A stretch of 38,775 nucleotides of DNA from a bacterium (lineage in GTDB: Bacteria; UBA4055): the NCBI GenBank assembly GCA_029559475.1, contig JAKQBN010000070.1:1-38775 (forward strand), in the 5' to 3' direction. This document shows positions 10,329 through 37,139 of this stretch, in pieces; position 1 is the first letter of the stretch, and each line of letters starts with the position of its first letter. Made by a program: the position numbers and the translations under genes. Under the pieces are notes generated by a model. The model had not been told where the DNA came from, searched no databases, and was given only the letters and a program-made list of their open reading frames with translations.

Positions 10329-10354
10329 GTACTTAACCTATGGAGGATATTTTC

Positions 10355-12223
10355 ATGGAAATCTTAAAACGTGTTTCTATAAGAGCTGTTATCGAAAGTT
10401 TTTTTAATACCGTAAAACGTTTTACTTTACCTGTGATATTCTCAATTATAACAAGCATCCTTATTATCGTTCTGATAGAAAATCAGGAAAATAAACCTTC
10501 TCCGTTAATAACGAAAAGCATTTTCGTATCGATACTGGGATTTTTCTTTACTCTTGTATCCACCCTTTACATTGAAAGATCAGAAAAAGCGGGAAAAATT
10601 AAATATCTCTTTCAGATTATAATGCTCACGCTGATTGCGTATTTATTCTTTACTCTGCCATCTAATTTCAGGCAGAACGATTATGTCACTTTCTCGGTTT
10701 TTCTTGCCGCAGCTGTTTTCGCTCTTATGTTCGTATATATTAAAAAAGATGACGATGAATCCGGATTCGGCATCTACAATATCAACCTTTTCATGCGAGG
10801 TTTTACGAGTTTTGTATTCGCAGTTGTCCTGTTTTTGGGAACTGCTTCTGCTCTTTTTGCTGTTCAGGAACTTTTCCTGAATAACAATTTCCATGAGGAG
10901 CTCTATGGAGACGCCTGGGTAATTTGCGCCGTATTTTTCGCTCCTTTGTATTTTCTTTCCGGACTGCCTGGTAGAAGTTTTTCTTCCGAGGAATCATTTA
11001 CTTATCCGAAACCGTTAAAAGTGCTGCTTCAGTTTATCATTGTACCGCTTATAGCATTATACCTTATAATCCTCTACAGCTACACGGTAAAAATCCTTAT
11101 AACCCAGAACTGGCCGGAAGGAATAGTTTCGTATATGATAATATCCTTCTCGCTTGTAGGAATATCATCGGTCATACTTCTTTCTCCTCTAAAAGATTCC
11201 GAACAGTTCAATTGGATAAATTCGTTCTCGAAGTATTTTTTCATGGCTCTTGTTCCGCTGATCATTGTTCTTTTTATGGCGATAACGGAAAGAGTTTCGC
11301 AGTATGGAATAACCGAAAAAAGATATTTTATTTTCCTGCTTTCATTCTGGCTCGCGGGAATTACGGTTTATATGATATTCAGCAAAACCAAGGACCTTAA
11401 AATGCTCCCTGTCACTCTCTGTATTATATCGGTTCTTTCGCTTTTCGGACCGTGGAGCTGTTTTTCTATTTCAAAATCCAGCCAGCTTTCGATACTGGAA
11501 GGTCTTTTAACAAAGAACGGTATCCTCTTAAACGGTGAAATCGTTCAGTCAGATAAAATTATTTCTTTTGCGGACAGAAAAAGTATTTCATCGATAATTT
11601 CATACTTTTATGACAGCCACGGGATAGCCGCCGTAAACTATCTTAAAACAACGTATCAGAAACTCGCCGCGGAAAATAAAGACTATAAAAATTCGAAGCC
11701 CGAATATGCATTCTACAGGGATGAAGATGAAGCGGTTCCGAGAAGAGCGCTTGTCAAAGACGGACTCGGATTCGATTTTATTAATGAGTGGCAGAATGAA
11801 AGCAGTTCGGATCAATTGAATCTGGCCGTAAAATATTTTCATGACCCGGCTGTTGAAAATATATCTGAGTACGATTCATATATAGACTGCAGGGACAATT
11901 TGATCAAAGCGAGAGTACTTGACAGCCTGAGTAATGTTTATATTAAGTATGATTCCGATAATTTTATGATCACTTTCGAGAAAGAAAATAACACGACTAT
12001 AGACTCGATAGATCTTAAGCTTCTTACCGGCAAGATAATTGCGGGAAATATCTACAACAACGGTAAAGACCAGATCGAACCTTCGGAGATGAAAGTATCG
12101 AATGAAACTGATAAAATGAAGTATCTGATCCTGTTCAGAAATCTAAGCGCTAAAAGGGATAATGAAAAAGATCCGTATAAGCTTACGAGCGCCTATTTCG
12201 GACTTTACTATAAAATTAAATAG
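10355..12223 (+). CDS. DUF4153 polytopic membrane protein
   Basis: A 622-residue integral membrane protein. The ATG at 10355 is preferred over the one at 10340 because GGAGGA (10342-10347) sits 7 nt before it and overlaps the earlier ATG. Residues up to about 390 form roughly a dozen hydrophobic segments. They include the DUF4153 features YGITEKRYFIFLLSFWLAG and LFGPWSCFSISKSSQ. The last 200 residues are hydrophilic and probably lie outside the membrane. No biochemical function is established for DUF4153. It ends 11 nt before the UbiA-type gene on the same strand and may share its transcript. Whether it takes part in the downstream pathway, for example as a lipid carrier or exporter, is speculation. 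Confidence 0.82.
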   Translation: MEILKRVSIRAVIESFFNTVKRFTLPVIFSIITSILIIVLIENQENKPSPLITKSIFVSILGFFFTLVSTLYIERSEKAGKIKYLFQIIMLTLIAYLFFTLPSNFRQNDYVTFSVFLAAAVFALMFVYIKKDDDESGFGIYNINLFMRGFTSFVFAVVLFLGTASALFAVQELFLNNNFHEELYGDAWVICAVFFAPLYFLSGLPGRSFSSEESFTYPKPLKVLLQFIIVPLIALYLIILYSYTVKILITQNWPEGIVSYMIISFSLVGISSVILLSPLKDSEQFNWINSFSKYFFMALVPLIIVLFMAITERVSQYGITEKRYFIFLLSFWLAGITVYMIFSKTKDLKMLPVTLCIISVLSLFGPWSCFSISKSSQLSILEGLLTKNGILLNGEIVQSDKIISFADRKSISSIISYFYDSHGIAAVNYLKTTYQKLAAENKDYKNSKPEYAFYRDEDEAVPRRALVKDGLGFDFINEWQNESSSDQLNLAVKYFHDPAVENISEYDSYIDCRDNLIKARVLDSLSNVYIKYDSDNFMITFEKENNTTIDSIDLKLLTGKIIAGNIYNNGKDQIEPSEMKVSNETDKMKYLILFRNLSAKRDNEKDPYKLTSAYFGLYYKIK

Positions 12224-12234
12224 GCTGCAGTCAT

Positions 12235-13230
12235 ATGAATAACGACTTTCAATTATTATCTTTTTTAAAGCAGTATATAAAATCCATGAGGCTGTATTAC
12301 TCCTTCGTGACAGGTATCGCCGGCTGGCTCGGATTCGCTTTCTATGAGCATATCGCGACCGATTTCAGAACAGTGGAGATATTTCCTTCTGTTGAGAAAA
12401 AAGCTCTAATCATCTCCCTTCTTTTCCTTAGCTGGGGCATAAATCAAATCGTGAACGATTACCTCGGGTTGAAAGAAGACCGTATAAATGCTCCTGAAAG
12501 ACCTATGGTAACGGGTAAGCTTGATCCTAATGCGGCTTTGTTATTGTCAGCGGCTCTAATGTTATTCGTCTGCGGAATTACTTATTTCTATCTCGAACCC
12601 GTCGCGCTGATACCTCTTGTTCTCGGAGTTTTGCTGAATGTGGTTTATGAATATTCAAAAGCTTTCGGAATCTGGGGAAATATTATTTTCGGACTTATGA
12701 TCACTATGTGTACAGCTTTCGGTTTCCTTGCCGCCGGTCCGACTGAAGCTCCGTATTTTACGAGCAGCAGGATAGCAGTCCTGGTTGTAGTATGGCTTAT
12801 GAACGGACTTATGACATTCTATACTTATTTTAAGGATTATGAAGGCGATAAGGCTGCGGGGAAAAATACTATTATAGTAAAATACGGTATTGAGAGATCG
12901 CGTATCATAGCTATTTTTTCGGCATTTCTGCCTGCTGTTCTGTTTATAGCCGTTTACAGCTTAGATATGATAGAAGCTCCTCTTAATACGACTTTTTTTG
13001 TACTTGCGGTTCTGACCCTGTTTTTAGAAATCCAGACCGGCTGGTTATATTATAAAAACCCGAAAGGACAAGTCACGTATTACTCACTGGCGACAAATTT
13101 CAGATCCTGCGCGTGCGGTCAAGCCACTTTCATCGCTCTATTCAATAGAGAGCTGTCACTGATCCTGTTCCTCGTTTCGTATATTTTCGTCGGATTTCTT
13201 TTCAACCTCCATAACAACAGCAGATCATAA
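12235..13230 (+). CDS. UbiA-family prenyltransferase
   Basis: A 331-residue membrane protein with about eight or nine hydrophobic segments. Members transfer a polyprenyl chain from its diphosphate to an aromatic or glyceryl acceptor within the membrane. The first Asp-rich motif reads NQIVNDYLGLKEDRINAPER (residues 70-89). Against the family pattern NDxxDxxxD it keeps Asn74, Asp75 and Asp82 but has Gly78 in place of the middle Asp. The second motif is present as YFKDYEGDKAAGKNT. The Shine-Dalgarno sequence is weak. It is the first of nine tightly packed genes, and its stop is immediately followed by the next start. Acceptor and prenyl donor cannot be read from sequence. A digeranylgeranylglyceryl-phosphate synthase-like role is one option. 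Confidence 0.85.
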   Translation: MNNDFQLLSFLKQYIKSMRLYYSFVTGIAGWLGFAFYEHIATDFRTVEIFPSVEKKALIISLLFLSWGINQIVNDYLGLKEDRINAPERPMVTGKLDPNAALLLSAALMLFVCGITYFYLEPVALIPLVLGVLLNVVYEYSKAFGIWGNIIFGLMITMCTAFGFLAAGPTEAPYFTSSRIAVLVVVWLMNGLMTFYTYFKDYEGDKAAGKNTIIVKYGIERSRIIAIFSAFLPAVLFIAVYSLDMIEAPLNTTFFVLAVLTLFLEIQTGWLYYKNPKGQVTYYSLATNFRSCACGQATFIALFNRELSLILFLVSYIFVGFLFNLHNNSRS

Positions 13231-14415
13231 ATGATTAATATCGAAAAAGAAATATCCGATCATATTTTCAGATCGGCGACTTTTGAGGGTATGGCCGATA
13301 ATAAGGGATTTCCATCTGAAGATTATCTTCAGCTTTATAAAAAACTCGCCTCTAACGGCGTTAAGAATATTATTACAGGATTTACATACGTTTCTGAAAA
13401 CGGTAAAGCCGTTCATCCGGGTCAGGCCGGGATCGACAGTCCGGAAAAGGTCCCTTATTTCAGAAAGATAACGGACGCTGTTCATGAATACGAAGCCCGG
13501 ATCTACATGCAGCTGGCACACGCCGGTCGTCAGACATCAGAACGCGTTACGGGACATCCTGTCGTCGGAGCATCAAATAAAAGGTCCTCTTATTTTCAAA
13601 GCACACCGAAAGAATTAACCGCATCTGAAGCCGGAGATATAATTAATTCTTTTGCCGATTCTGCATTTTATGCAAAGAATGCGGGATTTGACGGAGTGCA
13701 GCTTCATGCGGCTCACGGATATCTCATTCATCAGTTTATTCATCCGTACATAAACGACAGAAAAGATGAATACGGTATCGATCCCGGAACAGGCATTGGA
13801 GACAGATTTCTAAGACAAACCGTAGAAGCTGTCAGGAGCCGTTGCGGCCAGGATTATCCTGTTCTTGTCAAGATCAGCGCGTCAGACGACTTACCGGTAA
13901 AGTTCTCGGAAAATAATTTCATTTCCCTGATTAAAGTTCTTGATGAATTAAAAGTCAGTTCGATAGAGATCAGTTTCGGCACCATGGAAAATGCCCTGAA
14001 TATTTTCAGAGGAAATTCGGTGCCTGCTGACGCCGTACTTGATTACAATTTCAGATACGGCACTAAAAGCATTATAAAAAGAAATATTACAAAATTCGCA
14101 ATCATGCTGTTTTTAAAAAAGGATCTTATTCAATTCAGTAATACTTACAATCTAAAATACGCTGTGACCGCAAAAAAACATACTCATATACCTGTTATAA
14201 GCGTCGGGGGATTCAGAAACGGACATGATATCTACGGCGCTATTACATCAGGATCCTGTGATCATGTAAGCCTGTGCAGGCCTTTTATCTGCGAACCGGA
14301 TTTTATGATCAGACTTAAAAATGATCCTGAATATATCTCAGAATGTTCAAACTGCAATTACTGCGCTGTAATGTGCGATTCCCCGTTTTCTACAAAATGC
14401 TGCAAACATAAATAA
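13231..14415 (+). CDS. OYE-family flavin oxidoreductase with C-terminal cysteine cluster
   Basis: A 394-residue FMN-dependent TIM-barrel enzyme of the old yellow enzyme/NADH:flavin oxidoreductase family. Typical blocks are YMQLAHAGRQ (92-101), GFDGVQLHAAHGYLIHQFIH (152-171) and VISVGGF with GSCDHVSLCRPFICEPD. The C-terminus ends in a cysteine cluster, CSNCNYCAVMC plus CC (Cys372, 375, 378, 382, 390, 391). This resembles the 4Fe-4S site of 2,4-dienoyl-CoA reductase-like members. The second FAD/NAD(P) domain of those enzymes is absent. It probably reduces an activated C=C bond or acts as a dehydrogenase fed by an external electron donor. It abuts the UbiA gene with no spacer and no clear ribosome-binding site, so it is translated by coupling. 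Confidence 0.87.
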   Translation: MINIEKEISDHIFRSATFEGMADNKGFPSEDYLQLYKKLASNGVKNIITGFTYVSENGKAVHPGQAGIDSPEKVPYFRKITDAVHEYEARIYMQLAHAGRQTSERVTGHPVVGASNKRSSYFQSTPKELTASEAGDIINSFADSAFYAKNAGFDGVQLHAAHGYLIHQFIHPYINDRKDEYGIDPGTGIGDRFLRQTVEAVRSRCGQDYPVLVKISASDDLPVKFSENNFISLIKVLDELKVSSIEISFGTMENALNIFRGNSVPADAVLDYNFRYGTKSIIKRNITKFAIMLFLKKDLIQFSNTYNLKYAVTAKKHTHIPVISVGGFRNGHDIYGAITSGSCDHVSLCRPFICEPDFMIRLKNDPEYISECSNCNYCAVMCDSPFSTKCCKHK

Positions 14416-14427
14416 TCCGGAGTGAAT

Positions 14428-14664
14428 ATGGAATCAATAGAAAAAATAAAAAAGATCATATTCGATAATATCGACAATAAGGTTAATATCGAAGATTCAA
14501 CGGATCTGAGAACCGGTATTCAGATAGACTCGTTCGACGCGCTGATGATAATGACAGGAATAGAGGATGAATTTAAGATCACTCTGGAAGAAGATGAATT
14601 TAAAAAAGTCGGCACCCCTTTGCAGATCCTGTCGCTTCTGAAAGAAAAATATGGTGTAAAATGA
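14428..14664 (+). CDS. Acyl carrier protein
   Basis: A 78-residue acidic carrier protein. The attachment serine for 4'-phosphopantetheine is Ser35 in GIQIDSFDALMIM; the usual DSL is DSF here. The ATG at 14428 is chosen because GGAG lies 5 nt before it; a GTG at 14422 would add only two residues. It overlaps the downstream oxoamine synthase gene by ATGA. A dedicated ACP placed directly before an alpha-oxoamine synthase is the arrangement used where the synthase takes its acyl chain from ACP rather than CoA, as in the Caulobacter sphingolipid locus. This is not the housekeeping ACP setting, since no fabD/fabG/fabF block surrounds it. Confidence 0.92.
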   Translation: MESIEKIKKIIFDNIDNKVNIEDSTDLRTGIQIDSFDALMIMTGIEDEFKITLEEDEFKKVGTPLQILSLLKEKYGVK

Positions 14665-15860
14665 GAAAAGAGGAAAGATTCGAGTTCAATTTTACTGAAG
14701 AGAACCGGCTTGTAGATGAAATCGGTTTCAATCCTTATTATCAGAAGATCTCTTCGGGAGCCGGATTATATGTCAGGATCGGAAATGATGACTATCTTAA
14801 TCTTGCTTCAAATAATTATCTCGCTCTGGCGGACGATCCTGAAGTTATATCGGCGATGAAGAAGTGCCTCGACAAATACGGCGTATCAATGTGCGGGACT
14901 CCTGTAGCTTGCGGTTATTCTGATATATATGAGACGGCTTCAAGAACGGTTTCTGAATTTCTGGGACTTGAAGATACTCTATTCTATCCTTCCTGCTATC
15001 AGGCGAACATGTCTATCTTCAGATCGCTCGCAAGACCCGAAGACGTTATTTTTGTTGACCGTTACGCACATTCGTCTTTGGTCGAAGGTATAAGATCACC
15101 CGGATGCAGGATAAAACCTTTCAGGCATAACGATGCTGATCATCTTGAGAGCCTGCTGAAAAGCAGCGGGGCGTTCGAAGTTAAATTCGTCGTGACTGAA
15201 TCTGTTTTTTCTACTGAAGGAACTATAGCGCCTTTTGATGAATTAAATGAACTCTGTAAAAAATACGGCGCTATACCGGTTGTAGATGATTCCCACGGAA
15301 TCGGAACTATCGGGAGGTCGGGAAAAGGTATCCTTGAAGAAAAGAACATTAAAGATTACAGCGGTATCTATACGGCATCAACCGGAAAAGCGCTCGGTAT
15401 TTCAGGGGGGATTGTAAGTGCGCCTGAAACAATAATAAATTATATACGGTACAACTCGCCCGGCCTGATCTATTCAACTGCGGTCCCGCCTGTACTTCTT
15501 GCCGGAACGATCAGAGCTCTTGAGATCATCGGTAAAAAAGGAGCGCTGTTTTCTGAAAGACTGACAGCTAACAAATTAAAAATACATACAGCTTTGAGCT
15601 CTCATGGATACGATCTTGCATCGGGCGATGCTCCCATCTGTTCAGTTAAAACCGGATCTAATGAGATAACGCTTAAGATCTGCAGATCCCTTTATGAAAG
15701 AGGAATACTTGCCACCCCTTTCATATATCCTTCTGTTTCAAGGAACAAAGGCATTATAAGAATGATCCCGCGTATCGATCTTGAAAGCACTCATCTTGAT
15801 CATATTTTAAGATCATTCGCCAATATCAGAGCGGAAAATCCGGAACTATTCATAAAATGA
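14661..15860 (+). CDS. PLP-dependent alpha-oxoamine synthase (Spt/BioF/Kbl family)
   Basis: A 399-residue class II aminotransferase-fold enzyme that joins an amino acid to an acyl thioester with loss of CO2, giving an alpha-amino ketone. The PLP lysine is Lys243 in TASTGKALGISGG. The cofactor-binding Asp-His block is VVDDSHGIGTIG (207-218), and the ring-stacking histidine is His137 in DRYAHSSLVEGIR. The details (DDSHGIG, TGKALG) resemble Kbl as much as serine palmitoyltransferase. Context argues against threonine degradation or biotin: an ACP overlaps it upstream, a lipid kinase overlaps it downstream, and no tdh or bio genes are near. The most likely role is the first committed step of a sphingoid-like or other long-chain amino-ketone lipid. 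Confidence 0.9.
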   Translation: MRKEERFEFNFTEENRLVDEIGFNPYYQKISSGAGLYVRIGNDDYLNLASNNYLALADDPEVISAMKKCLDKYGVSMCGTPVACGYSDIYETASRTVSEFLGLEDTLFYPSCYQANMSIFRSLARPEDVIFVDRYAHSSLVEGIRSPGCRIKPFRHNDADHLESLLKSSGAFEVKFVVTESVFSTEGTIAPFDELNELCKKYGAIPVVDDSHGIGTIGRSGKGILEEKNIKDYSGIYTASTGKALGISGGIVSAPETIINYIRYNSPGLIYSTAVPPVLLAGTIRALEIIGKKGALFSERLTANKLKIHTALSSHGYDLASGDAPICSVKTGSNEITLKICRSLYERGILATPFIYPSVSRNKGIIRMIPRIDLESTHLDHILRSFANIRAENPELFIK

Positions 15861-16801
15861 AAAAATATTTTTTCATAATAAATCCCGGATCGAATCACGG
15901 GAAAAGCAGAAAAAGCCTGAAAAAGATAACAGAGTTCATGGCTTTAACGAATATTCCGTTCGAATATAAAGAAACAACGACACTCGATCATGCGTATGAA
16001 CTTTCAAGAAAAGCCAATCTTGAAGGACATGAAGTAATAGTCGCCGTAGGGGGAGACGGCACGATAAACAAAGTAATAAACGGATTTTATGACAGCTTCG
16101 GCAAACGGTTATCAAAGGCCGTCCTCGGTGTGATCCATACGGGAACTAGCCCTGATTTCTGTAAAAGCTACGGCATTCCGTCTGATCTGAAAAAAGCGCT
16201 TGATACTTTACTGAAAGTCTCGAAAAAACAGATCAGTATTGCTAAAATTGAATATCTCAAGGCTGATGAGAAAAAGGCAGTCTATTTTGCCTGCTGCGCC
16301 AGCTTAGGCCTAGGCGCACATGTGGCTGCTTACGCCAATTCAGGCGTCAGGAAATATTTCGGTGATACATTAGGAACGCTTATCTCTATTATCAGATCTC
16401 TGGCCGTTTACAGATCTGATGATCTTGTTTTAGTTACTGACGGTAAAGAATCAGAAGTAAAAAACAACTGCATTACTTTTATCGGTAAAACAACTTATAT
16501 AGCCTCGGGACTAAAGATCAGCAATGACCTTACGGCAGATGACCGGCGGCTTTTCGTAGTCAGCATAAGAAATGTAAATTTAATGAATTTTATCCCTGTA
16601 TTAAATACCTTATATTCCGGTAAACCTGTAATTCCCGGTGATCATATTTCTTTTGAATATGCCGGAATAATTCAAATAAAAAGTTTAAAATCAAATTCCA
16701 AAATCGAATTAGACGGCGATCCTTTGAACGCAATGCCGCCTTGCACGGTCTCGGTCGCGGAAGATAATCTGGAGGTAATTACAGATGAAGATGAACTATG
16801 A
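15857..16801 (+). CDS. Diacylglycerol/sphingosine-kinase-family lipid kinase
   Basis: A 314-residue soluble kinase of the DAGK catalytic family (DgkB, YegS, LcbK, bacterial ceramide kinase). The N-terminal NPGSNHGKS motif (9-17) and the nucleotide-binding GGDGTINKVINGF (65-77) are clear. The next family block, usually GTGNDFA, reads HTGTSPDFCKSYGIP (94-108), an altered acceptor-side segment. The C-terminal lobe ends in SKIELDGDPLNAMPPCTVSV, as expected. The gene overlaps the oxoamine synthase by ATGA and the ThiL-like gene by 17 nt. With an oxoamine synthase next door, phosphorylation of a sphingoid base, ceramide or similar lipid alcohol is the best guess; diacylglycerol is the alternative. 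Confidence 0.88.
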   Translation: MKKYFFIINPGSNHGKSRKSLKKITEFMALTNIPFEYKETTTLDHAYELSRKANLEGHEVIVAVGGDGTINKVINGFYDSFGKRLSKAVLGVIHTGTSPDFCKSYGIPSDLKKALDTLLKVSKKQISIAKIEYLKADEKKAVYFACCASLGLGAHVAAYANSGVRKYFGDTLGTLISIIRSLAVYRSDDLVLVTDGKESEVKNNCITFIGKTTYIASGLKISNDLTADDRRLFVVSIRNVNLMNFIPVLNTLYSGKPVIPGDHISFEYAGIIQIKSLKSNSKIELDGDPLNAMPPCTVSVAEDNLEVITDEDEL

Positions 16802-17798
16802 GTCACGCGTGATCGAAATGATCAATTCCGTTATGCCTGATTCTCCTCTTAGAATAAGCCGTTGCTTCGAGTCTGACTCGGAGGTCATTTATCTGGGCGG
16901 AAGAAAATATCTTTTCACTACAGATGATTTTTCAAAAGAGGATCTTTTTCATGAAAAGGATCCCTATGTTCTGGGCTGGAACATAGGGTGCGCATCCGTC
17001 AGTGATATTATAGCTGCCGGAGGCATACCCCTTATCTATTCTCATTCAATGGTCATATCAAGGAACTGGGAAGATAAATATATAGAGGCATTCGCAAAAG
17101 GAATAGCGGAGGTTCTTAAAACATATTCGATATCATTTGCCGGCGGAGATCTCGGGATCTCTGAGAACTGGCGCTATACATCTACAGTTATAGGAAAATG
17201 CGGAGATAAGATACTAAACAGAAAAGGCGTACAACCCGGCGATTCTATCTTTTTAACAGGCGAGATCGGAAGGGGGAATCTTAATGCCGCTCTGAGTTTA
17301 TTTTCTTATGACCCGCGAATTAAAGAATTATCCGTCAGTGAAAAAAATATTTTCAGGACCCACGAGCATATTGCTAGAGCATTATCGAAATATGCTTCAG
17401 CAGCTATAGATACGAGCGACGGTGTTTATTCTGCGCTTAGAATTTTATCTGAACTTAACGGTAAAGGTTATATAATAGATTCACTCCCGTTCATTGCGGG
17501 CGGCGTCCGTGTTTCAAAATCTTTGAACCTTCCTTCAGAACTTCTTTTTTTAGGTGATTGCGGCGAGTACGAGATTCTTTTTACTGTCGGCGATAATAAA
17601 AAATCCGAACTGATCAAAGAAATACACGATCTCGGTCTGACGGTCTATGAGATCGGAAAATTTACCGGTAACAGCGATGAGAAGATTATACTAATGAACG
17701 GAAAACGAACAAACCTGAAAGATTATGATCTTAATGCGAGAGATTTCGTTGATGTAAAAGAATACCTGGGCGAACTGATCGCATGGGTGAACAGATGA
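16785..17798 (+). CDS. ThiL/PurM-superfamily ATP-dependent enzyme of unknown substrate
   Basis: A 337-residue protein with the AIR synthase-related fold, closest in pattern to thiamine-monophosphate kinase ThiL. Metal/ATP motifs are LFTTDDFS (43-50), SVSDIIAAGGIP (71-82), FAGGDLG (118-124), PGDSIFLTGEIG (151-162), AIDTSDGV (207-214) and GDCGEYEILFTV (257-268, ThiL GGEDYELLFTV). The ATG at 16785 follows GGAGG with a 9-nt gap. No thiamine gene is nearby; instead it lies between a lipid kinase and a ketoacyl synthase, overlapping the former. Superfamily members phosphorylate their substrate or activate an amide oxygen with ATP. It is probably recruited to the lipid pathway, but a plain ThiL cannot be excluded. 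Confidence 0.8.
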   Translation: MKMNYESRVIEMINSVMPDSPLRISRCFESDSEVIYLGGRKYLFTTDDFSKEDLFHEKDPYVLGWNIGCASVSDIIAAGGIPLIYSHSMVISRNWEDKYIEAFAKGIAEVLKTYSISFAGGDLGISENWRYTSTVIGKCGDKILNRKGVQPGDSIFLTGEIGRGNLNAALSLFSYDPRIKELSVSEKNIFRTHEHIARALSKYASAAIDTSDGVYSALRILSELNGKGYIIDSLPFIAGGVRVSKSLNLPSELLFLGDCGEYEILFTVGDNKKSELIKEIHDLGLTVYEIGKFTGNSDEKIILMNGKRTNLKDYDLNARDFVDVKEYLGELIAWVNR

Positions 17799-19051
17799 AA
17801 AGAAGAACGGTAATAACGGGAATCGGGCCTGTAACTTCCGCAGGGATTGGAAAAGACAGATTTTGGAAAGCGCTTTTGTCCGGAATAATTCCCGAACGTA
17901 AAAACGTTCCGGATAAATTTAATTCCAAATCAAAATTCTACATTCCTTTTCCTGAATTCAGCCTTGAAGAATATAACATTCCTGAATATTACAGATTTCT
18001 GCAGCCCGAGGATAAGCTTGCTGTAATATGCACTAAACTCGCGCTTGCAGATGCCGGAATTGAACTTTCCCCGGAGAAAAATAAATTCACATCTGAAAAC
18101 ATTTCTCATGCTTCAGTAATAATAGGTACGGGATTTACCGGGCTGGAAACGGCATTTAATTCATACCTGGCTCATTTGGGTATCGAATATTTCTCGCAGA
18201 AATATAATAAGAATGTTTCTTTTAACAGAATGGTGATCCCGATGCTTATGATAAATTCGCCGGCAGCATGGATATCGATCATGTTCGGTCTGAAGGGCGA
18301 AAGTTTTACGGTTAACGCAGCCTGTGCTTCAGGCACTTTCGCTCTCGGTCAGGCGTACGAGAAGATAACGAACGGAAGATCGGACATCGTCATTACGGGA
18401 GGTGTTGAAAACCTTCAGGAAGAAAACTTTTCAATTTTTCGCGGCTTTGATGTTCTCGGCGCTCTAACAAGATCGCCTTCGGGTGATCCCCAGCCTTTCT
18501 CTAAGAACAGAAGCGGATTTTTATACTCCGAAGGCGGAGGTTGCGTTCTTGTGCTTGAAGAACTTTCATCCGCGCTTAAAAGGAATGCCCGGATTTATGC
18601 CGAGATCCTCGGTTATCATTCGAACAGCGACGCCTATAATATAGTCCAGATCGAGCCTGAGGGAACCCGGATTTCAGAACTGTTCAAAAATCTGTCAGGA
18701 GACAATAAAATCGATTATCTGAATTCACACGGCACAGGCACAGTCCCGAACGATGAAATAGAATCACAGGCCATTATCCGGCATTTCGGGCATGCTCAGG
18801 ATCAGCCTTTCATAAATTCGACCAAAGGCAATCTCGGTCATACGATAGGCGCGAGCGGAGCGATAGAGACCGCTGTTACAGCGCTTTCGGTCATCAGCGG
18901 AGATATTCATCCGAACTTTATAAATGATCCTATCGATGACCTTAATCTGGTTCTGAAAACTCAGAAAGCAGACATCGAGAAAGCCTTATCTGTATCCTAC
19001 GGTTTTGGAGGCCATAACGCGGGACTGCTTTTAGGAAAATTTCATGGGTAA
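17795..19051 (+). CDS. Beta-ketoacyl-ACP synthase (KAS I/II type)
   Basis: A 418-residue condensing enzyme. The catalytic triad is complete: Cys177 in TVNAACASGTFALG, His312 in NSHGTGTVPNDEIES and His349 in KGNLGHTIGASGAIET. The C-terminal glycine-rich block is SYGFGGHNAG. It should carry out decarboxylative Claisen condensation of malonyl-ACP with an acyl thioester. The ATG at 17795 is preferred (ATGA overlap with the ThiL-like gene, family-like MKRRTVITGIGPVTSAGIG); an ATG at 17783 would add four residues. The N-terminal third is more divergent than in FabF, suggesting a specialised acyl substrate. It probably builds or extends the chain presented on the neighbouring ACP. Confidence 0.92.
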   Translation: MKRRTVITGIGPVTSAGIGKDRFWKALLSGIIPERKNVPDKFNSKSKFYIPFPEFSLEEYNIPEYYRFLQPEDKLAVICTKLALADAGIELSPEKNKFTSENISHASVIIGTGFTGLETAFNSYLAHLGIEYFSQKYNKNVSFNRMVIPMLMINSPAAWISIMFGLKGESFTVNAACASGTFALGQAYEKITNGRSDIVITGGVENLQEENFSIFRGFDVLGALTRSPSGDPQPFSKNRSGFLYSEGGGCVLVLEELSSALKRNARIYAEILGYHSNSDAYNIVQIEPEGTRISELFKNLSGDNKIDYLNSHGTGTVPNDEIESQAIIRHFGHAQDQPFINSTKGNLGHTIGASGAIETAVTALSVISGDIHPNFINDPIDDLNLVLKTQKADIEKALSVSYGFGGHNAGLLLGKFHG

Positions 19052-20081
19052 AGTCCTTATCACAGGAGCATCCGGATTTATCGGAAGTCACATTGTGGAG
19101 CTTTTCGCGGATAAACATATCCCCGCGGTATGTCTTGTACGAAATTCCTCCGATACGGCTTTTCTGAAAAACCTCGGTCTTGAACCGGTATATGGCGACA
19201 TAAAGGATACAGAATCCCTGAGATCGGCTCTGAAAGACATTGATTTCGTGATCCATACGGCAGGTAAATCGTCTGACTGGGGCGGATATCAGGATTTTTA
19301 TGATAATAATGTATCAGGAACTATCAACATTCTTGAAGCTTCTATATCAGCAGGCATAAAAGATGTTATTATCACAGGTTCGGTCTCCTCTTACGGGGAA
19401 GAAGATTGTTCGAGCGTAAAAAACGAAGATTCACCTTATAATTCCCATTACAGATACTTCTGCGGCAGGATCTTCCCGTCTGCCATGAATCATTACAGGG
19501 ACACTAAAGCGCTGCTGACTCAAAAAAGCATAGAGTTCGCGGAAAAAAATAAAATCAATCTGACCATAATCGAGCCAGTCTGGGTTTACGGCGAAAGAGA
19601 GTTCAGTTCCGGATTCTACGAATATCTAAAGACCGTACATTCAGGTATCAGATTCATGCCGGGATCACCATCAAATAAATTCCATGTCATCTATGCCGGA
19701 GATCTCGCACAAGCCTATCTTGCCGCATATCTGAAAAAGCAGAAAGGAGTCAGCCGTATAATTATCGGCGATCCTAAAGCTCAAAATATGAATTATATTC
19801 ATTCGCTGTTCTGCTCGAACGCAGATTTGAAACCGCCTGCGCTTTTGCCTAAGTTCTTGACTTATCCTGTCGGGATCTGCCTTGAACTGGCAGCTTCACT
19901 ATTCAGATCTGAAAAGCCGCCGCTTTTAAGCAGAGCTCGTGTTAACATGATGTACGACAGCATAGAATATTCGACAGCCAGATCTGAAAAACTTCTCGGA
20001 TTCAAAGCGGTCACACCTTTAGAAGAAGGCATCAAACGAACAGTTGATTGGTATAAATCTAACGGATTTCTGGAGGATTGA
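19044..20081 (+). CDS. Extended SDR (NAD-dependent epimerase/3-beta-HSD type), CerR-like candidate
   Basis: A 345-residue Rossmann-fold oxidoreductase. The cofactor-binding motif is ITGASGFIGSH (6-16). Catalytic residues are Tyr151 and Lys155 in HYRDTKALLTQ, with the serine in TGSVSSYG (111-118). The sequence type is that of 3-beta-hydroxysteroid dehydrogenase-like SDRs, which include OleD and the bacterial ketoceramide reductase CerR. It overlaps the ketoacyl synthase by 8 nt, and its stop is followed at once by the radical SAM start. In this context the likely job is reduction of the ketone left by the oxoamine synthase or the ketoacyl synthase. Other sugar- or steroid-type substrates are not ruled out by sequence alone. 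Confidence 0.87.
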   Translation: MGKVLITGASGFIGSHIVELFADKHIPAVCLVRNSSDTAFLKNLGLEPVYGDIKDTESLRSALKDIDFVIHTAGKSSDWGGYQDFYDNNVSGTINILEASISAGIKDVIITGSVSSYGEEDCSSVKNEDSPYNSHYRYFCGRIFPSAMNHYRDTKALLTQKSIEFAEKNKINLTIIEPVWVYGEREFSSGFYEYLKTVHSGIRFMPGSPSNKFHVIYAGDLAQAYLAAYLKKQKGVSRIIIGDPKAQNMNYIHSLFCSNADLKPPALLPKFLTYPVGICLELAASLFRSEKPPLLSRARVNMMYDSIEYSTARSEKLLGFKAVTPLEEGIKRTVDWYKSNGFLED

Positions 20082-21368
20082 ATGAATAAAAATATAATTG
20101 ACGGATATAAAAAATCCATGTTCATCTTAAAGCTGAAGCTCATAGTCGCTTTACATTTCATGATACATTACAGATCCAAAAATCTCAGAGAATATTTTCT
20201 TTTATTAAAGCGGCTGAATTATTTTATCGGTAAACTTGAGCATAATAAATTCGTCAGGCAGGGAAAATACACCAAGATCGAACTGTATGTGCCTAAATTC
20301 CCGTCCGATGCTTTTTTTACTTCATGCAATAAATTCGCAGTGTTCGGCGAAAAACTCCCCTGCACTACCGTTCTGCTATCGGTGACCTCAGCCTGCAGAT
20401 ATAACTGCGCTCACTGCTATCAGAGGCTCGATAAAGGAAAAGATATTGATCTTGAAAAACTCATCCCGATAGCAAAATACCTTCAGGATCAGGGAGTTGC
20501 GTTCTTCAATATCGAGGGTGGAGAACCTTTCCTAGTATTCGACAGGCTTCTGGCTTTGTGTAAAGCTGTAGATAAAAGATCGGAGATCTGGGTGAATTCT
20601 ACAGGCGACGGAATGACGGCTGAAAGGCTTGCGGAATTAAAGAAAACCCAGCTTGCAGCAGTTATGTTCTCCCTGCATTCCCACGATCCTGAAAAGATAA
20701 ATGCCTTCATGGGATATGACAAAGCCTGGGAAAACCTTGAAAATGGGGTCAAACTTTGTCACGAAGCAGGCATTACGGTCACATTCAACACCTGCCTGAT
20801 GAAAGAGGATTCTTCCAACGGCAATTTCGAGAAACTGATGGACAAAGCAAAATATCTCGGTGGATCATTAATACAGCTGATCAAACCGAAACCATCAGGC
20901 GCATGGCTGGAAAGTGGAACCGATGTTTATTCGGAAGAGGACTTTGTTCTGGTCAAAAATAAAGTCAATATGTACAACAATAACAAAAAGTATATCGAAT
21001 ATCCTGCTATTGCCGCGCAGATAATCGAAGAAGATCCAGGCATGTTCGGATGCACGTCAGGTGGAACCGACAGATTTTATATCAACGCGAAGGGGGATGT
21101 CCAACCCTGCGAATTTCTCAATATCTCTTTCGGCAACATAAACGAGGAGAAGTTCGAAAAAATTTACAGCCGAATGAGAAAGGTCTATGATATCCCCGGG
21201 ACCTGCATACTCTGCGAAGAGCTTTCTCAAGAATTAAGAAATATCTGCAGAGAGAACGACCTTAAAACCCTTCCTCTTGATAAAGAACTTTCAAAGCGCT
21301 TCTACGATAAAATCAAGAACTGCACGCCTACCGAAATGTACCGGAAGGTCGAAAAAGAAATGATATAA
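20082..21368 (+). CDS. SPASM-type radical SAM enzyme
   Basis: A 428-residue enzyme. The 4Fe-4S/SAM site is Cys105, Cys109 and Cys112 in TSACRYNCAHCYQ, followed by IEGGEPF (144-150). A C-terminal auxiliary-cluster (SPASM-like) region has Cys324 in MFGCTSGG, Cys343 in GDVQPCEFL, and Cys375/Cys378 in GTCILCEE. The first 60 residues are a hydrophobic-basic helical extension (ILKLKLIVALHFMIHYR) that could attach the enzyme to the membrane. A GGAGG ribosome-binding site lies inside the end of the SDR gene. No short peptide gene is next to it, so a peptide-modifying role typical of SPASM enzymes lacks a visible substrate. Modification of the lipid product or precursor is the contextual alternative. 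Confidence 0.9.
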   Translation: MNKNIIDGYKKSMFILKLKLIVALHFMIHYRSKNLREYFLLLKRLNYFIGKLEHNKFVRQGKYTKIELYVPKFPSDAFFTSCNKFAVFGEKLPCTTVLLSVTSACRYNCAHCYQRLDKGKDIDLEKLIPIAKYLQDQGVAFFNIEGGEPFLVFDRLLALCKAVDKRSEIWVNSTGDGMTAERLAELKKTQLAAVMFSLHSHDPEKINAFMGYDKAWENLENGVKLCHEAGITVTFNTCLMKEDSSNGNFEKLMDKAKYLGGSLIQLIKPKPSGAWLESGTDVYSEEDFVLVKNKVNMYNNNKKYIEYPAIAAQIIEEDPGMFGCTSGGTDRFYINAKGDVQPCEFLNISFGNINEEKFEKIYSRMRKVYDIPGTCILCEELSQELRNICRENDLKTLPLDKELSKRFYDKIKNCTPTEMYRKVEKEMI

Positions 21369-25529: not shown

Positions 25530-27281
25530 TTATTTGTTGGTAATCCCTTCAGATTTCTTCTGTATCTGATATTCTATACCCATATCCTCTTTTTTTCCGA
25601 AAGAATCAGGGTGAAGATAATATCCTTTTTCATCAACTTTCTTGAGTGTTTCATTAATAATCGGATTAGCTTTAGCGTGGCTGTCGTTCCTTATAGCAGT
25701 GACCTGCCAGGATACTTCCATTCCGGAAACGCCGCCTGAAATAGAGAATCTGTTCCCGCTGATCTTTTTAGAAATATACAGATTAGGTCCCGGAGCACCG
25801 ATCGCAGTCAGCTGATATCTGAAATCCTTATTACCTGCTTCACACCACTCCGGCAGGACGATTTCGGCATTTCCACTTTCGTCAAGCTCTGCGTTACCAT
25901 GAAATATATTCGTCATCTGATCGCTTGCAACGCCTGACAAACTCAGATATTTATTTTCAGGGTCCAGCGGGTGATCGATCTTCACATCACTTTTTCCGTA
26001 TGTAATCGTACCGTTCACATACACGTTCCCGTTAAAATAACCCGACCAGTTCGTACCCGTACCTGAAGCACCGGCTCCGTAAATGCTTACATTCCTTGTC
26101 GTTCCACCGTTCCCGTCGCCATATAAACCGTATGTGTAAGCGTTTGTTGTTGTAGTAACAGTTCCCAGCACCCCGTAGTAATCATTACTGACATATAGCC
26201 CGTAATAGCTGTATGGTGTGTAATTAATACCAACATGTCCATTAATCTTAACCAGATCATTAGCGAAATCACCCCATATCAGCGGGGTTGCTGAATCTGA
26301 ATTTTCAATATACAGTTTATCAGAAGTAGTCTCGCTGTGACCGGCATCTTTACCAATAAAAATATTTCCCGAACCGGCGAGATTCGAATAGCCTGCTCTG
26401 TATCCCAGCATCACATTGTAATCTCCGGTTCTCAGATTGTTTCCTGCCGAATTTCCGAACAGGCAGTTTCCTGAGTATGAATTATAATAATATCCGTGGC
26501 CGGCACTCGACCCGAAGATCGAGTTATTGCTTCCGTTTTCATTGCAGTAAGCAGCGCCTGACCCGAAAACTGCATTATTGCAACCCCAACTGTTAAATAA
26601 CCCCGAGTTATCTCCTACAAATGTATTCCCCATACCACCAACGTTTTCTTTTCCGCTGTTGAATCCTACGAAAACATTAAAATTCTCATTTGATTTATAA
26701 CCGGCTTCGTTGCCGATGAACACATTGTTAGCTCCATATGTATTAGTAAATCCCGCATTATTTCCGATAAACACATTGTTCTTGCCGTTCAGGTCATAAA
26801 TGGGCGCGGTTGATTTTCCGGCATTTAGCCCTATAAATGTATTATACCTGTTGAAAGTTGTATATCTACCGCCAAGTGAATCCTGCATTCTAGTAGTATT
26901 GTCAGAAACTTTAAGAAGGTTTGTCACTCCGGATTTTGTAGCTGCGCTGTTAGTGTTTACTCCGAAACCCGATCCTGTATCACTTATCCAGAATCTGGTG
27001 CTGTCAGAAGTCAGTTTCATCAGATCGGTCCCGGTTCCTTTTGATGAAGCAGTTGATATGCAAAAAGACCGTGATAATCCTTTACTGCTCTCAAGATTAG
27101 CTTTTATCTCATTTGTGCTTATTACCATGAGAGTATCTCCCATGTTCAAAATCCTGAGACCGTCTGTCGATACATCAAGAACTTTATTGTTAGATGAATC
27201 CTTGACTTCGAATAAAGTTTCTGAATGCAATGAAGAAAACAATAAAAATACAAATATTACCGGGATTCCGTATAGTTTCAT
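25530..27281 (-). CDS. Secreted YadA-head-like repeat protein with conserved C-terminal domain
   Basis: A 583-residue exported protein. A signal peptide (MKLYGIPVIFVFLLFSSLHS) is followed by the module shared in this locus (VSTDGLRILNMGDTLMVIS, then GLSRSFCISTASSKG at about 69-83). Residues about 140-330 are short head repeats of the form NNVFIGNNAG with variable linkers, resembling the left-handed beta-roll of trimeric adhesin heads. The last 150 residues begin KIDHPLDPENKYL and include FRYQLTAIGAPGPNLYISKK and EKGYYLHP. The gene at 37140-38775 ends in the same domain. No membrane anchor, S74 domain or T9SS signal is seen. The ATG at 27281 has GGAGG before it. Probably a trimeric surface or extracellular fibre; function unknown. 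Confidence 0.82.
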   Translation of the reverse strand: MKLYGIPVIFVFLLFSSLHSETLFEVKDSSNNKVLDVSTDGLRILNMGDTLMVISTNEIKANLESSKGLSRSFCISTASSKGTGTDLMKLTSDSTRFWISDTGSGFGVNTNSAATKSGVTNLLKVSDNTTRMQDSLGGRYTTFNRYNTFIGLNAGKSTAPIYDLNGKNNVFIGNNAGFTNTYGANNVFIGNEAGYKSNENFNVFVGFNSGKENVGGMGNTFVGDNSGLFNSWGCNNAVFGSGAAYCNENGSNNSIFGSSAGHGYYYNSYSGNCLFGNSAGNNLRTGDYNVMLGYRAGYSNLAGSGNIFIGKDAGHSETTSDKLYIENSDSATPLIWGDFANDLVKINGHVGINYTPYSYYGLYVSNDYYGVLGTVTTTTNAYTYGLYGDGNGGTTRNVSIYGAGASGTGTNWSGYFNGNVYVNGTITYGKSDVKIDHPLDPENKYLSLSGVASDQMTNIFHGNAELDESGNAEIVLPEWCEAGNKDFRYQLTAIGAPGPNLYISKKISGNRFSISGGVSGMEVSWQVTAIRNDSHAKANPIINETLKKVDEKGYYLHPDSFGKKEDMGIEYQIQKKSEGITNK

Positions 27282-27311
27282 GATGCGCCTCCATGCCTGA
27301 TATTAAATAAA

Positions 27312-30302
27312 TTATTTAGATGTACTTTTCACAGCAGATCGTTCAGCAGCCTCTCTAGTTAAATTCGTAGCTGTTATATAATAGAATTTCTTTGTCAGTG
27401 AAACCGCAGCTGTCCACTGAGTTCCATTGAATACTCCTGAACTGTCTAAAGTAAATGATCCGTAGGGGGAAGAAGATGAATATACTTTATATCCTGCCGC
27501 TCCTGACACAGGGCTCCATGAAATCGTTACATTCCCTGAAGAGTAAGAGATATTTACATTAGCTGGTGCTCCCAAAGGAGTTCTCTGCTCCCAAGCCAGA
27601 TACGGATATCCGCCATTTATACCACTATTGATCTCCCAGATTGGCGTTGTTGTAAAATCCCACCCGATATATGTGGTCGCATCATTATGCACGTATGTCA
27701 TATCGTCCGTCGTCCTTCCGTATCCTGCCCCTGAAGATATCTGCCCGCTTGTTTCGGTATCCCAGTAGCATTCATAAACATATCCTGAATCATAATACCC
27801 TAAAAAACCGCCGACATTCGCACCTGAACCTGAGACTGCACCGTTCGAGTAACATCTGAAGATATTTGCCTGATAACTGTAGCCTGCCATTCCGCCGGAA
27901 TAATCTACCGATGATACGGAACCTGATGTGTAGCAGTCAGATATCGTGCACTGTGAAATATATCCTGCAAGACATCCTGCATAACTCCATTCCCACAAAG
28001 AAGTAATGTCAGCTTCAGAATAACATTCAGTGACCGATGAATTGCAAATATTGCCTGCAATGCCTCCCGTATAGCTGTTTGCAGTTAGATTTCCGGAAAC
28101 ACCGCAGTTGAATATTGTAAGAGAATCGCAGTATCCTATTAGAAGTCCCGTGTTAGAGTATCCTGCAACCTGCGCACCTGCAATTTTGATCTCTTTAATA
28201 ACCGCACCTCTTACAATACCGAAAAGACCGGTATAATTGAACGCCATCGAATCTCTTTCCATCGTAAGGTTGTTGATGATATGGTAATCCCCGTCATATT
28301 TTCCTCTGAACGGTGACATCCAGTCCGTACATATCGGATCCCATCCTGCGTCTTCGTTCCACGGAGCTGTACCGAGATCGATATCCACTGTCTGCCTGAA
28401 AGATTTCGTTCTGTAATATCTGACATTATTAAGCTGTTCCGCATTAGAAACAAGGAACGGATCCTCGTCAGTGCCTTTTCCGCCTGCAAAATTCGTGTTC
28501 GGAATGTTCTGCCACTTAAAATAAGGATAGCCGTCGTTTATATTATGGTTGATCTCCCAGATCGGAATGGGTGATCCGAAATCCCACCACACATATGTAT
28601 CGGATGAATGTTCGAACGTCATCTCGTCCGTTGTCCTTCCGAACCCGCCTGCAGAAAAGACTTGTCCGCTGGTCTCTGTGTTCCAGTAAGATGCGTTGAC
28701 CGCTATGTCAATTCCGCCGCCTATCAGTCCTCCGCAAGTTCCGGAACCGGATACAGTTCCTATAGAATAATTATTCATAATGCTCGACATATACGCATAG
28801 CCGATAAACCCGCCCGAATATACTGATCCTGACACGCTTCCGTACGCGAAATTGTCATATATATATGAGCCGTTGTCACTGCCTATAAATCCGCCTGAAG
28901 TTGAACCGGTCACATCGCTTTCTGAATAACAGTAATTGAAATAACAGTTCTCAGAATAACCTGCAAAACCTCCCGTATAAAGCTGTCCCTGTACTGAACC
29001 ATCGGAACGGCATTTCGAAAAAGATGTTGAGAGCAATGTCCGCCCGGCCAATCCGCCTGAATAGTCCAGACCGGTGACTGATCCTGACACAAAACAGCTG
29101 TCAAGATAATTGTACTGGTATGCCGAGCCGGTTATGATTCCTGTATAATTTGCGCCTGTAATGTTTGCTCCAGTTACGTTTATCTTCCTCAGATATGTAT
29201 CGCTTACATTTCCGAACAGGCCTGTATAATCCTCGGACGGTCTGTTGATCGTTATGTTGCTGATTGAAAATCCGTTCCCGTTATAGTTCCCCATGAACAG
29301 GTTGTTCTGATCACCGACCGGATCCCAGCCTAATCCCGAGTTCCAGGGAGCTAACCCGAGATTTATATCCGCTATCTGTTTAAAATAGCAATCGTTCCAT
29401 TCTGAGCCGAGATAATATCTCAAGCTGTCAAGATGCTGGGCTGTCCTTATCAGGTAAGGTTCTTCTTCTGTGCCTTTTCCGCCTGCGAAATACGTATCCG
29501 TATTATTTACAGTATAACCTGTAGCTGCATCCAGCGTAAAAGTCACGGTCATTGGATCTGAGACTGTAACGAAATCCGCTGTAGCCAGTGAATCCCATGT
29601 TCCGGAATATTTCCAGACACGCAGGTGATCTTTTCTGTTTCCGTTGTCCTCTATGCTTAACCAGTCAGCCGTTACGTTTCTCGTTCCGGAAAATGGAATT
29701 GAAGTCTCGATCTTCCACTGCCTTTTTATTCCTTCTGATCCTAGTATAGTCTCCTGACTGCCGTCGCCTGTTTTTCTGTGCAGTGTTACAGTGCCGATAT
29801 CGATTCCTGTGTTATTGATTGTAAATCCCGCGCCTCCGAAATGTCCTGTAGCTGCAGATGTTCCGGTGCCTATATATCTGATTACATTTAGATTACCGAG
29901 GACAAGTCCGAGAGCATTTTCGCCTGTTACAGAAGATGATGTACCAGTAAGCTTCAACGAATCGCTGCCTGTTAATATATTACCCGATATGAATTCAAGA
30001 ATACCTGAAATCATTAGATTTTGGTCAAGATAAATATTTCCGCCCTTTTTATCGACTTTCACATTGTTCAGTAAATCAATATTTTTCAGGCTGTCATCGA
30101 AAGATCCGATAAAGCACAATCTCGATGAAGAATCAAAATATATCCCGGCAGCTTTTACCTGTTTAGCCTGCTCTACTTCTATTCCTCCCGCAAGAGTTAC
30201 ATCATAAGGTCCGAATCTGATCTCAGAAACAGGATTTATCCACATTCCTGCAAATGTCATCTGTATCAGGATCAGCAGGCAAGACAAAGTTATCTTTTTC
30301 AA
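27312..30302 (-). CDS. Secreted GLUG-repeat protein with C-terminal FN3-like domain
   Basis: A 996-residue exported protein starting at a TTG (30302) 6 nt after AAGGAGG; no in-frame ATG fits. Signal peptide MKKITLSCLLILIQMTFAGM. The first 220 residues look like a beta-helical domain. Two copies of a block follow, from AGGKGTEEEPYLI (about 275) and AGGKGTDEDPFLV (about 605). Each carries an IADINLG/VDIDLG line, several GLUG-type repeats (TGLFGNV, SGGLAGRT, TGGFAGYS) and an ending with ETSGQ, GRTTD and WEIN. The C-terminal 95 residues are FN3-like (VTISWSPVSGAAGYKVYSSS). GLUG repeats occur in large extracellular adhesins and peptidases; no catalytic domain is present. A paralogue lies at 33839-37030. 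Confidence 0.83.
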   Translation of the reverse strand: MKKITLSCLLILIQMTFAGMWINPVSEIRFGPYDVTLAGGIEVEQAKQVKAAGIYFDSSSRLCFIGSFDDSLKNIDLLNNVKVDKKGGNIYLDQNLMISGILEFISGNILTGSDSLKLTGTSSSVTGENALGLVLGNLNVIRYIGTGTSAATGHFGGAGFTINNTGIDIGTVTLHRKTGDGSQETILGSEGIKRQWKIETSIPFSGTRNVTADWLSIEDNGNRKDHLRVWKYSGTWDSLATADFVTVSDPMTVTFTLDAATGYTVNNTDTYFAGGKGTEEEPYLIRTAQHLDSLRYYLGSEWNDCYFKQIADINLGLAPWNSGLGWDPVGDQNNLFMGNYNGNGFSISNITINRPSEDYTGLFGNVSDTYLRKINVTGANITGANYTGIITGSAYQYNYLDSCFVSGSVTGLDYSGGLAGRTLLSTSFSKCRSDGSVQGQLYTGGFAGYSENCYFNYCYSESDVTGSTSGGFIGSDNGSYIYDNFAYGSVSGSVYSGGFIGYAYMSSIMNNYSIGTVSGSGTCGGLIGGGIDIAVNASYWNTETSGQVFSAGGFGRTTDEMTFEHSSDTYVWWDFGSPIPIWEINHNINDGYPYFKWQNIPNTNFAGGKGTDEDPFLVSNAEQLNNVRYYRTKSFRQTVDIDLGTAPWNEDAGWDPICTDWMSPFRGKYDGDYHIINNLTMERDSMAFNYTGLFGIVRGAVIKEIKIAGAQVAGYSNTGLLIGYCDSLTIFNCGVSGNLTANSYTGGIAGNICNSSVTECYSEADITSLWEWSYAGCLAGYISQCTISDCYTSGSVSSVDYSGGMAGYSYQANIFRCYSNGAVSGSGANVGGFLGYYDSGYVYECYWDTETSGQISSGAGYGRTTDDMTYVHNDATTYIGWDFTTTPIWEINSGINGGYPYLAWEQRTPLGAPANVNISYSSGNVTISWSPVSGAAGYKVYSSSSPYGSFTLDSSGVFNGTQWTAAVSLTKKFYYITATNLTREAAERSAVKSTSK

Positions 30303-30316
30303 AATATCCTCCTTTT

Positions 30317-31987: not shown

Positions 31988-32015
31988 GATCACTCCTCCA
32001 TTATATCATTTAATA

Positions 32016-33779: not shown

Positions 33780-33803
33780 ATTTCCTCCCTTTTCTCTCTT
33801 ATT

Positions 33804-33831
33804 AAAAAAAGGGCGTTCGCTACGCCCTTTT
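33804..33831 (-). terminator. Rho-independent terminator inside the secreted-protein locus
   Basis: On the minus strand AAAAGGGCGT (33831-33822), a 5-nt loop and ACGCCCTTTT form a 10-bp stem followed by further T's and AATAAG. It lies 8 nt after the stop of the GLUG gene ending at 33839 and about 25 nt before the next start. It splits the locus into at least two transcription segments or acts as an attenuator. Confidence 0.85.
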
Positions 33832-33838
33832 CATATTC

Positions 33839-37030: not shown

Positions 37031-37076
37031 ATTGTCCTCCGTATCTCTAGAAAATTATTCATTTTTCCCTGATTAT

Positions 37077-37104
37077 AATATACACCTATTGTAAGATTTT
37101 TCAA
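37077..37104 (-). promoter_or_regulatory. Candidate promoter for the large GLUG gene
   Basis: On the minus strand TTGAAA (37104-37099), 16 nt, TATATT (37082-37077), 46 nt before the start. An overlapping TATAAT at 37077-37072 would need a 21-nt spacer. Hexamers and spacing equal those at 10301-10328. Confidence 0.45.
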
Positions 37105-37139
37105 AAGCAATTTCTGTGACTCACTTCACAATTATCATT

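Follow-up and report, generated by a model that had tools for sequence, protein, structure and literature searches.

The window analysed here, a stretch of 38,775 nucleotides (contig JAKQBN010000070.1), carries nine consecutive genes on the forward strand between positions 12235 and 21368, which we tentatively read as an operon for an amino-lipid. The genome it belongs to (G000; 2.28 Mb in 83 contigs) is one of 13 in its phylum. The original prediction had placed nine open reading frames of named families here; we found all of them at these positions on the + strand, and every family name was supported by Pfam or NCBIfam:

12235..13230, +, UbiA-superfamily membrane transferase of a distinct subfamily (Pfam PF01040, 1.6e-27)
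13231..14415, +, old-yellow-enzyme (OYE) ene-reductase with a C-terminal four-Cys [4Fe-4S]-type motif (PF00724, 7.5e-48)
14422..14664, +, dedicated acyl carrier protein (ACP) with a D36-S37 phosphopantetheine site (PF00550 PP-binding, 1.7e-4)
14661..15860, +, alpha-oxoamine synthase (AOS), dependent on pyridoxal phosphate (PLP) (PF00155, 8.7e-43)
15857..16801, +, lipid kinase of the diacylglycerol kinase (DAGK)/YegS type with a GTSPDF motif (DAGK_cat, 3.4e-25, plus YegS_C)
16785..17798, +, ThiL-like kinase of the AIR-synthase superfamily (AIRS/AIRS_C, Pfam 4.3e-13)
17783..19051, +, FabF-type beta-ketoacyl-ACP synthase (KAS) (PF00109/PF02801)
19044..20081, +, extended short-chain dehydrogenase/reductase (SDR), HpnA/OleD/CerR-like, a presumed ketone reductase (Epimerase, 3e-30)
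20082..21368, +, radical S-adenosylmethionine (rSAM)/SPASM enzyme (Radical_SAM, 8.3e-19, plus SPASM)

Read from UbiA to rSAM, the junctions measure 0, +6, -4, -4, -17, -16, -8 and 0 nt, so that the ends touch or overlap everywhere except at the +6 gap, as had been described. Among the matches listed, none of the nine proteins reached an NCBIfam equivalog cut-off, so that a known enzyme name cannot be given to any of them.

The window UbiA, searched against 84,980 species genomes, found 52 loci, and the nine window proteins were mapped onto each of them. Gene order in relatives had been proposed as a check on the prediction. All nine genes were found in identical order on one strand in 30 of the 52 loci, and the arrangement is therefore not a matter of chance. 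The remaining loci were mostly collinear up to a contig end; others were permuted, rearranged or short of one or two genes. Five (L075, L085, L087, L091, L093) were circular permutations, ThiL-(KAS)-SDR-rSAM-UbiA-OYE-(ACP)-AOS-DAGK, in which the ring order is kept. OYE was missing from L082 and L049 and KAS from L080, while L095 and L097 were rearranged. In a Neomarinimicrobiota genome the operon lay on two contigs, with a UbiA-OYE pair on one (L077) and the remaining seven genes on the other (L124).

Identity to the window ranged from 28 to 71% for eight of the genes and from 48 to 83% for UbiA; by median, ACP was the least similar (38%) and UbiA the most (65%). The UbiA tree covered fifteen named phyla, and the carriers were mostly anaerobic bacteria. 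Occurrence within groups was patchy. By UbiA, the carriers were 2/13 genomes of the window's own phylum (G000 and G003 only) and 1/392 in Planctomycetota; they numbered 14/73 in the Desulfosporosinus order, with scores of 614 bits or more, and 6/384 in Omnitrophota. Such patchiness, combined with strong colinearity, suggests horizontal spread plus loss. No relative of the window UbiA was found on viral contigs, nor was the operon AOS found in plasmid records, where all 700 matching records were below 60% identity and those listed were BioF-, Kbl-, ALAS- or SPT-like.

The oxoamine synthase and UbiA families

The AOS was placed in a maximum-likelihood tree of 60 rows, made up of 45 operon AOS and references (six serine palmitoyltransferases (SPT), BioF, Kbl, ALAS and the Thermus AOS). 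The 45 operon sequences came out as a single clade (100/100), with a stem 1.84 changes per site long; some references are approximate, with at least one wrong residue in the Thermus AOS and possibly others, though the 100/100 split should hold. The six SPT references grouped together outside this clade, as did BioF, Kbl, ALAS and the Thermus AOS. The tree, which the original prediction had named as a check on the synthase, thus rejects its assignment as BioF, Kbl or SPT. Profile scores agreed with this separation: the family profile gave 545-675 bits for operon AOS and at most 293 for any other AOS of the same genomes. Against the SPT model NF047600 the window AOS scored 232 bits (cut-off 640), while the SPT references of Roseomonas and of an E. 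coli plasmid did pass NF047599. Further scores of the window AOS were 218 bits for Kbl, 171 for Sphingobacterium SPT and 131 for cysteate fatty-acyltransferase (CFAT).

The operon AOS conserve the PLP lysine K243 and retain the stacking histidine along with the Asp/His pair. Where SPT, ALAS and many BioF have a GSR-type motif, they have a CGTP-type one, (C)xTP, and 'ESVFST' stands in place of 'DGVFSM'. Judged by sequence, the operon AOS is a new, discrete family apart from SPT, BioF, Kbl and ALAS, probably an active enzyme of its own kind. In a Black Sea sphingolipid survey, oxoamine synthases outside the Spt-like clade were regarded as probably non-sphingolipid enzymes (PMC11334938).

Other oxoamine synthases were seen in or near carriers. 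In the rearranged Phycisphaerae loci L095/L126 (MAG24) the order is UbiA-rSAM-DAGK-ThiL-OYE-AOS; only L095 has an AOS outside the operon clade, placed weakly near SPT, and a swapped synthase is possible. The window genome has two tandem Kbl-like synthases on another contig (G000:C42, L033:9003-11549), beside an acetyl-CoA-synthetase-like gene. In the tree the two join E. coli Kbl (100/99), separate from the operon synthase, and such tandem pairs recur in most genomes of G000's family. In the Sumerlaeota carrier G069, another AOS adjoins a YghO-like gene (G069:C90:142-2443, L142), and this genome may thus hold an SPT-type locus apart from the operon.

The UbiA proteins form a distinct subfamily. 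The full orthologues share ND-x-LG-xx-D (51/51) and a Glu before the last Asp (50/51), and N74, D75, D82, K200, D201 and D205 are invariant in all 51. The Mg2+-binding Asp of motif 1, D66 in the Methanocaldococcus jannaschii digeranylgeranylglyceryl phosphate (DGGGP) synthase, is Gly78 in 51/51 sequences. The D66-xxx-D70 motif of that enzyme is therefore broken, with the D70 equivalent, D82, and the second Asp motif both kept. The canonical form, NDIIDIxID, is seen in other UbiAs of the window's phylum. A second UbiA of the window genome, in L048 (G000:C4:23737-24300), has the canonical motif NDILDIDID, is common to the family and may belong to another prenyl-lipid pathway.

The M. jannaschii enzyme was the window UbiA's only sequence match in the PDB and its top Foldseek match. 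With VIA-align, the AlphaFold model of the window UbiA matched archaeal UbiA homologues at Z 21.3-21.2 (4od5: Z 21.3, 3.0 A over 268 residues) and DGGGP synthase at Z 19.2; prenyl synthases matched at Z ~14, as expected of helical bundles. The protein is thus predicted to have a UbiA fold. UbiA enzymes group by acceptor, and motif-1 and motif-3 mutants of the M. jannaschii synthase are impaired in binding the acceptor, geranylgeranylglyceryl phosphate, with binding of geranylgeranyl diphosphate hardly affected (PMC9385802). Since such mutations affect the acceptor, an altered motif 1 in an otherwise intact enzyme would fit a different lipid-phosphate acceptor, and the product of the neighbouring kinase is a candidate.

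Core genes, modules and fusions

Four divergent Omnitrophota clusters (388-430 bits) retain a minimal set. The order is AOS-DAGK-SDR-UbiA in L128, L130 and L131, and AOS-DAGK-[SDR-rSAM fusion]-UbiA in L129. Neither the operon-type ThiL nor the operon-type OYE was found anywhere in these minimal-cluster genomes, whose best ThiL-like protein scored 96 bits, compared with 468-523 for the operon kinase in carriers. ACP and KAS are missing together, with the AOS kept, from four Ignavibacteria/Bacteroidetes loci (one of which, L087, is cut by a contig end) and from Spirochaetes L092. The minimal clusters and the joint loss of ACP and KAS point to an obligatory core of AOS, SDR, DAGK and UbiA. KAS and ACP would then be one supply module and rSAM, ThiL-like kinase and OYE modifiers, all of them dispensable. 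UbiA had earlier been counted with OYE, the ThiL-like kinase, KAS and rSAM as genes that tailor or feed the product; this view fits the last four, while UbiA, kept in the minimal clusters, belongs to the core.

Natural fusions join ACP to AOS (in L131 by Pfam and in L128 by reading) and SDR to rSAM (in L129), and DAGK lies directly downstream of AOS in every collinear locus. The fused gene structures indicate that the neighbouring steps are functionally tied.

In three of the four minimal clusters a polytopic membrane protein of 410-500 amino acids stands upstream of AOS, which could possibly be a second UbiA-type step (Pfam UbiA-like, 5e-18, in L128):

L128:4299-5801, polytopic membrane protein
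L130:9557-10795, polytopic membrane protein
L131:1610-3043, polytopic membrane protein

In the remaining enzymes, the catalytic residues that could be recognised are conserved. KAS keeps its C181/H316/K348/H353 set and SDR its YxxxK motif; the nearest NCBIfam models of the SDR, HpnA and OleD, were both below cut-off. In OYE, C372, C375, C378 and C390 (C-x2-C-x2-C-x11-C) are conserved in at least 95% of sequences; the gene is absent from Latescibacterota G067 and Delongbacteria G003. The ThiL-like kinase matched thiL (TIGR01379) best, at 130 bits with a cut-off of 184, and keeps most ThiL motifs, with changes at the GDD, VNLSD and GxHF sites. Several carriers, such as G066 and G067, have separate, weaker ThiL-like genes. 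As the ThiL cut-off is missed and other ThiL-like genes are present, the operon kinase appears to be a specialised extra paralogue, and with most motifs kept its substrate is likely to be a phosphate other than thiamine phosphate.

The rSAM enzyme keeps CxxxCxxC and the SPASM cysteines, and some 100 of its positions are conserved in 95% or more of the sequences. Its AlphaFold model (pLDDT 80) has an N-terminal extension of two helices (8-30 and 35-54), the first of them hydrophobic. A fold search with this model gave SkfB, SuiB, BlsE, viperin and anSME as best matches and pointed to no specific function.

Proposed pathway and alternatives

We tentatively favour the reading that the nine genes together encode a single biosynthetic route to an undescribed amino-lipid, running from aminoketone to amino alcohol to phosphate, followed by prenylation by UbiA and further modification. 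The evidence is genetic; the reactions and their order are inferred from it, as are the amino acid, the prenyl donor and the lipid finally made. KAS and ACP would supply an acyl-ACP, which AOS would condense with an amino acid to an alpha-aminoketone, presumably the first committed step. SDR would reduce the ketone to a 2-amino-3-hydroxy, sphingoid-like base, and the DAGK-type kinase would phosphorylate a hydroxyl. In the membrane, the DGGGP-synthase-like UbiA would add a prenyl group to this lipid-phosphate acceptor, a step modelled on archaea, which prenylate geranylgeranylglyceryl phosphate. The substrate of the rSAM enzyme would be what SDR makes or an intermediate further on, OYE would reduce a C=C bond, and the ThiL-like kinase would add or activate a phosphate. 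A bolder version, which we regard as speculative and rather doubtful, is a class of hybrid membrane lipids, in which a phosphorylated sphingoid-like amino alcohol receives an isoprenoid chain from the DGGGP-synthase-like UbiA and is modified by rSAM; anaerobes of 15 or more phyla would make it with a single operon that has spread horizontally.

Several points weigh against the amino-lipid scheme. Product and activity are undocumented for every member of the operon family. The AOS is not an SPT, which leaves even the amino acid undecided, and without the Mg-binding Asp UbiA may work with another donor or by another chemistry. The second UbiA-like membrane protein in 3/4 minimal clusters is unexplained by the scheme, in which the ThiL-like kinase and rSAM also have no clear job. 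Neither a prenyl-diphosphate synthase nor an N-acyltransferase is present in the operon; a YghO-like gene, an unverified N-acyltransferase candidate that adjoins the E. coli SPT cluster, was not found in 11/14 carrier genomes, G000 included.

The archaeal ether-lipid pathway (PMC9385802) resembles the scheme in its membrane step: DGGGP synthase is the nearest relative of the operon UbiA, residues of the N62, Y/K and motif-3 types are kept, and a lipid-phosphate acceptor is proposed. It differs in the Asp66 position, and in using glycerol-1-phosphate and geranylgeranylglyceryl phosphate synthase where the operon has AOS, SDR and DAGK; its reductase is a geranylgeranyl reductase and that of the operon is of the OYE type. 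The sulfonolipid (capnine) pathway, with its cysteate fatty-acyltransferase, likewise begins with an AOS that joins an amino acid to an acyl thioester to make an aminolipid. The operon, however, has no sulfonate genes, and its AOS scores lower on CFAT than on Kbl or SPT.

That the locus is an ordinary bacterial sphingolipid (ceramide phosphate) operon, with the extra genes decorating ceramide, is improbable. In Caulobacter and relatives the ceramide set comprises AasR, CerR, AcpR, Spt, CerS and ceramide kinase (PMC11324152), and the operon recalls it in placing an oxoamine synthase beside a dedicated ACP, an extended SDR and a lipid kinase. The original prediction held that these four genes match the Caulobacter set. 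The resemblance does not extend to the sequences: the AOS lies outside the SPT clade and far below the SPT cut-offs, the SDR shows only 23% identity (E 5e-14, 310 aligned columns) to its counterpart in a genuine SPT cluster, and the kinase aligns to one of the SPT-cluster type over 54 residues only. Moreover, acyl-AMP ligase and CerS or another N-acyltransferase, of which the Caulobacter pathway has both kinds, are absent from the operon, whereas UbiA is core and KAS, rSAM, OYE and the ThiL-like kinase are added. What stands of the predicted sphingolipid-like or amino-lipid pathway is a lipid-type operon around AOS, ACP, SDR and DAGK, not one of SPT type. The opposite possibility, that unrelated genes are neighbours by chance or in a mobile cassette, could draw on the patchy distribution, but order across about 15 phyla, overlapping genes, permutations that keep the ring and natural fusions refute it in practice and leave it a negligible probability.

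Two other chemistries would use UbiA differently. ThiL adds a second phosphate to thiamine phosphate, and in tocopherol synthesis phytol kinase, phytyl-phosphate kinase and homogentisate phytyltransferase act in series. By analogy, DAGK could make a monophosphate and the ThiL-like kinase a diphosphate, which UbiA would use as donor onto some acceptor. The two kinase genes are adjacent and overlapping, the specialised ThiL paralogue is in keeping with a phosphate substrate, and UbiA enzymes do use diphosphate donors (PMC9385802). We nevertheless consider this relay unlikely, as minimal-cluster genomes keep UbiA, DAGK and SDR without an operon-type ThiL, which weakens it as an obligate mechanism, and the diphosphate of a saturated amino alcohol, not being allylic, would serve poorly as a donor. 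Phytol salvage follows the same logic of kinase, kinase and UbiA, but its kinase families are unrelated and the ThiL-like gene is absent from the minimal clusters. AOS products can also cyclise, and the aminoketone (or a diketo-amine made by KAS) might form a heteroaromatic or quinone-like ring, prenylated by UbiA and adjusted by rSAM and OYE into a redox lipid of anaerobes. Many characterised UbiA enzymes take aromatic acceptors (PMC9385802), and redox chemistry in anaerobes is a natural setting for rSAM and an OYE of the iron-sulfur type. Retention of a lipid kinase in the minimal set and the closeness of UbiA to the DGGGP synthase group, with its lipid-phosphate acceptors, make this ring distinctly unlikely.

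The original prediction knew of no pathway with the full combination, and our search of open-licence papers also found no description of the nine genes together. The proposed amino-lipid pathway is apparently undescribed; it would fall among the AOS-initiated aminolipid pathways. A nine-enzyme pathway conserved in so many anaerobic phyla would imply a class of lipids or lipid-derived cofactors missing from lipidomics. The known families would gain an AOS subfamily, a variant UbiA active site, a kinase of the ThiL family that acts on a new substrate, and a radical SAM reaction on a lipid that is probably coupled to a reductase. Since some carriers are in culture (Desulfosporosinus hippei, D. 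lacus, D. nitroreducens, Petroclostridium and Acetivibrio alkalicellulosi), the pathway can be tested directly.

Neighbouring and accessory genes

The operon comes with dedicated regulators: a helix-turn-helix gene precedes UbiA in 18 loci, all in Bacillota, and MarR genes are present in Omnitrophota. Directly after rSAM (or UbiA), Omnitrophota loci carry a conserved hydrophobic protein of 125-132 amino acids without a Pfam family, which is 62-65% identical between minimal and full clusters:

L074:12546-12929, hydrophobic protein
L076:19221-19610, hydrophobic protein
L078:19328-19705, hydrophobic protein
L129:14412-14810, hydrophobic protein
L132:16260-16637, hydrophobic protein

In L100 (Spirochaetales Zod_Metabat.855) the UbiA, KAS, SDR and rSAM reading frames are short and broken, and the locus looks decayed or badly assembled.

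Within the window, a gene for a DUF4153 membrane protein (10340-12223, +; Pfam 3.7e-23) stops 11 nt ahead of UbiA and may be co-transcribed with the operon here. It was rejected as a tenth operon gene, since it is not adjacent to UbiA in relatives; in the Delongbacteria relative L049 a different gene, a glutamate dehydrogenase by reading, takes its place. On the reverse strand, 25530-38606 holds a row of five large, repetitive, secreted-looking proteins. Read by eye, two of them have an S74-peptidase-like chaperone-type tail, 'D(I/E)R(L/F)K', and the others are GLUG-repeat adhesin-like.

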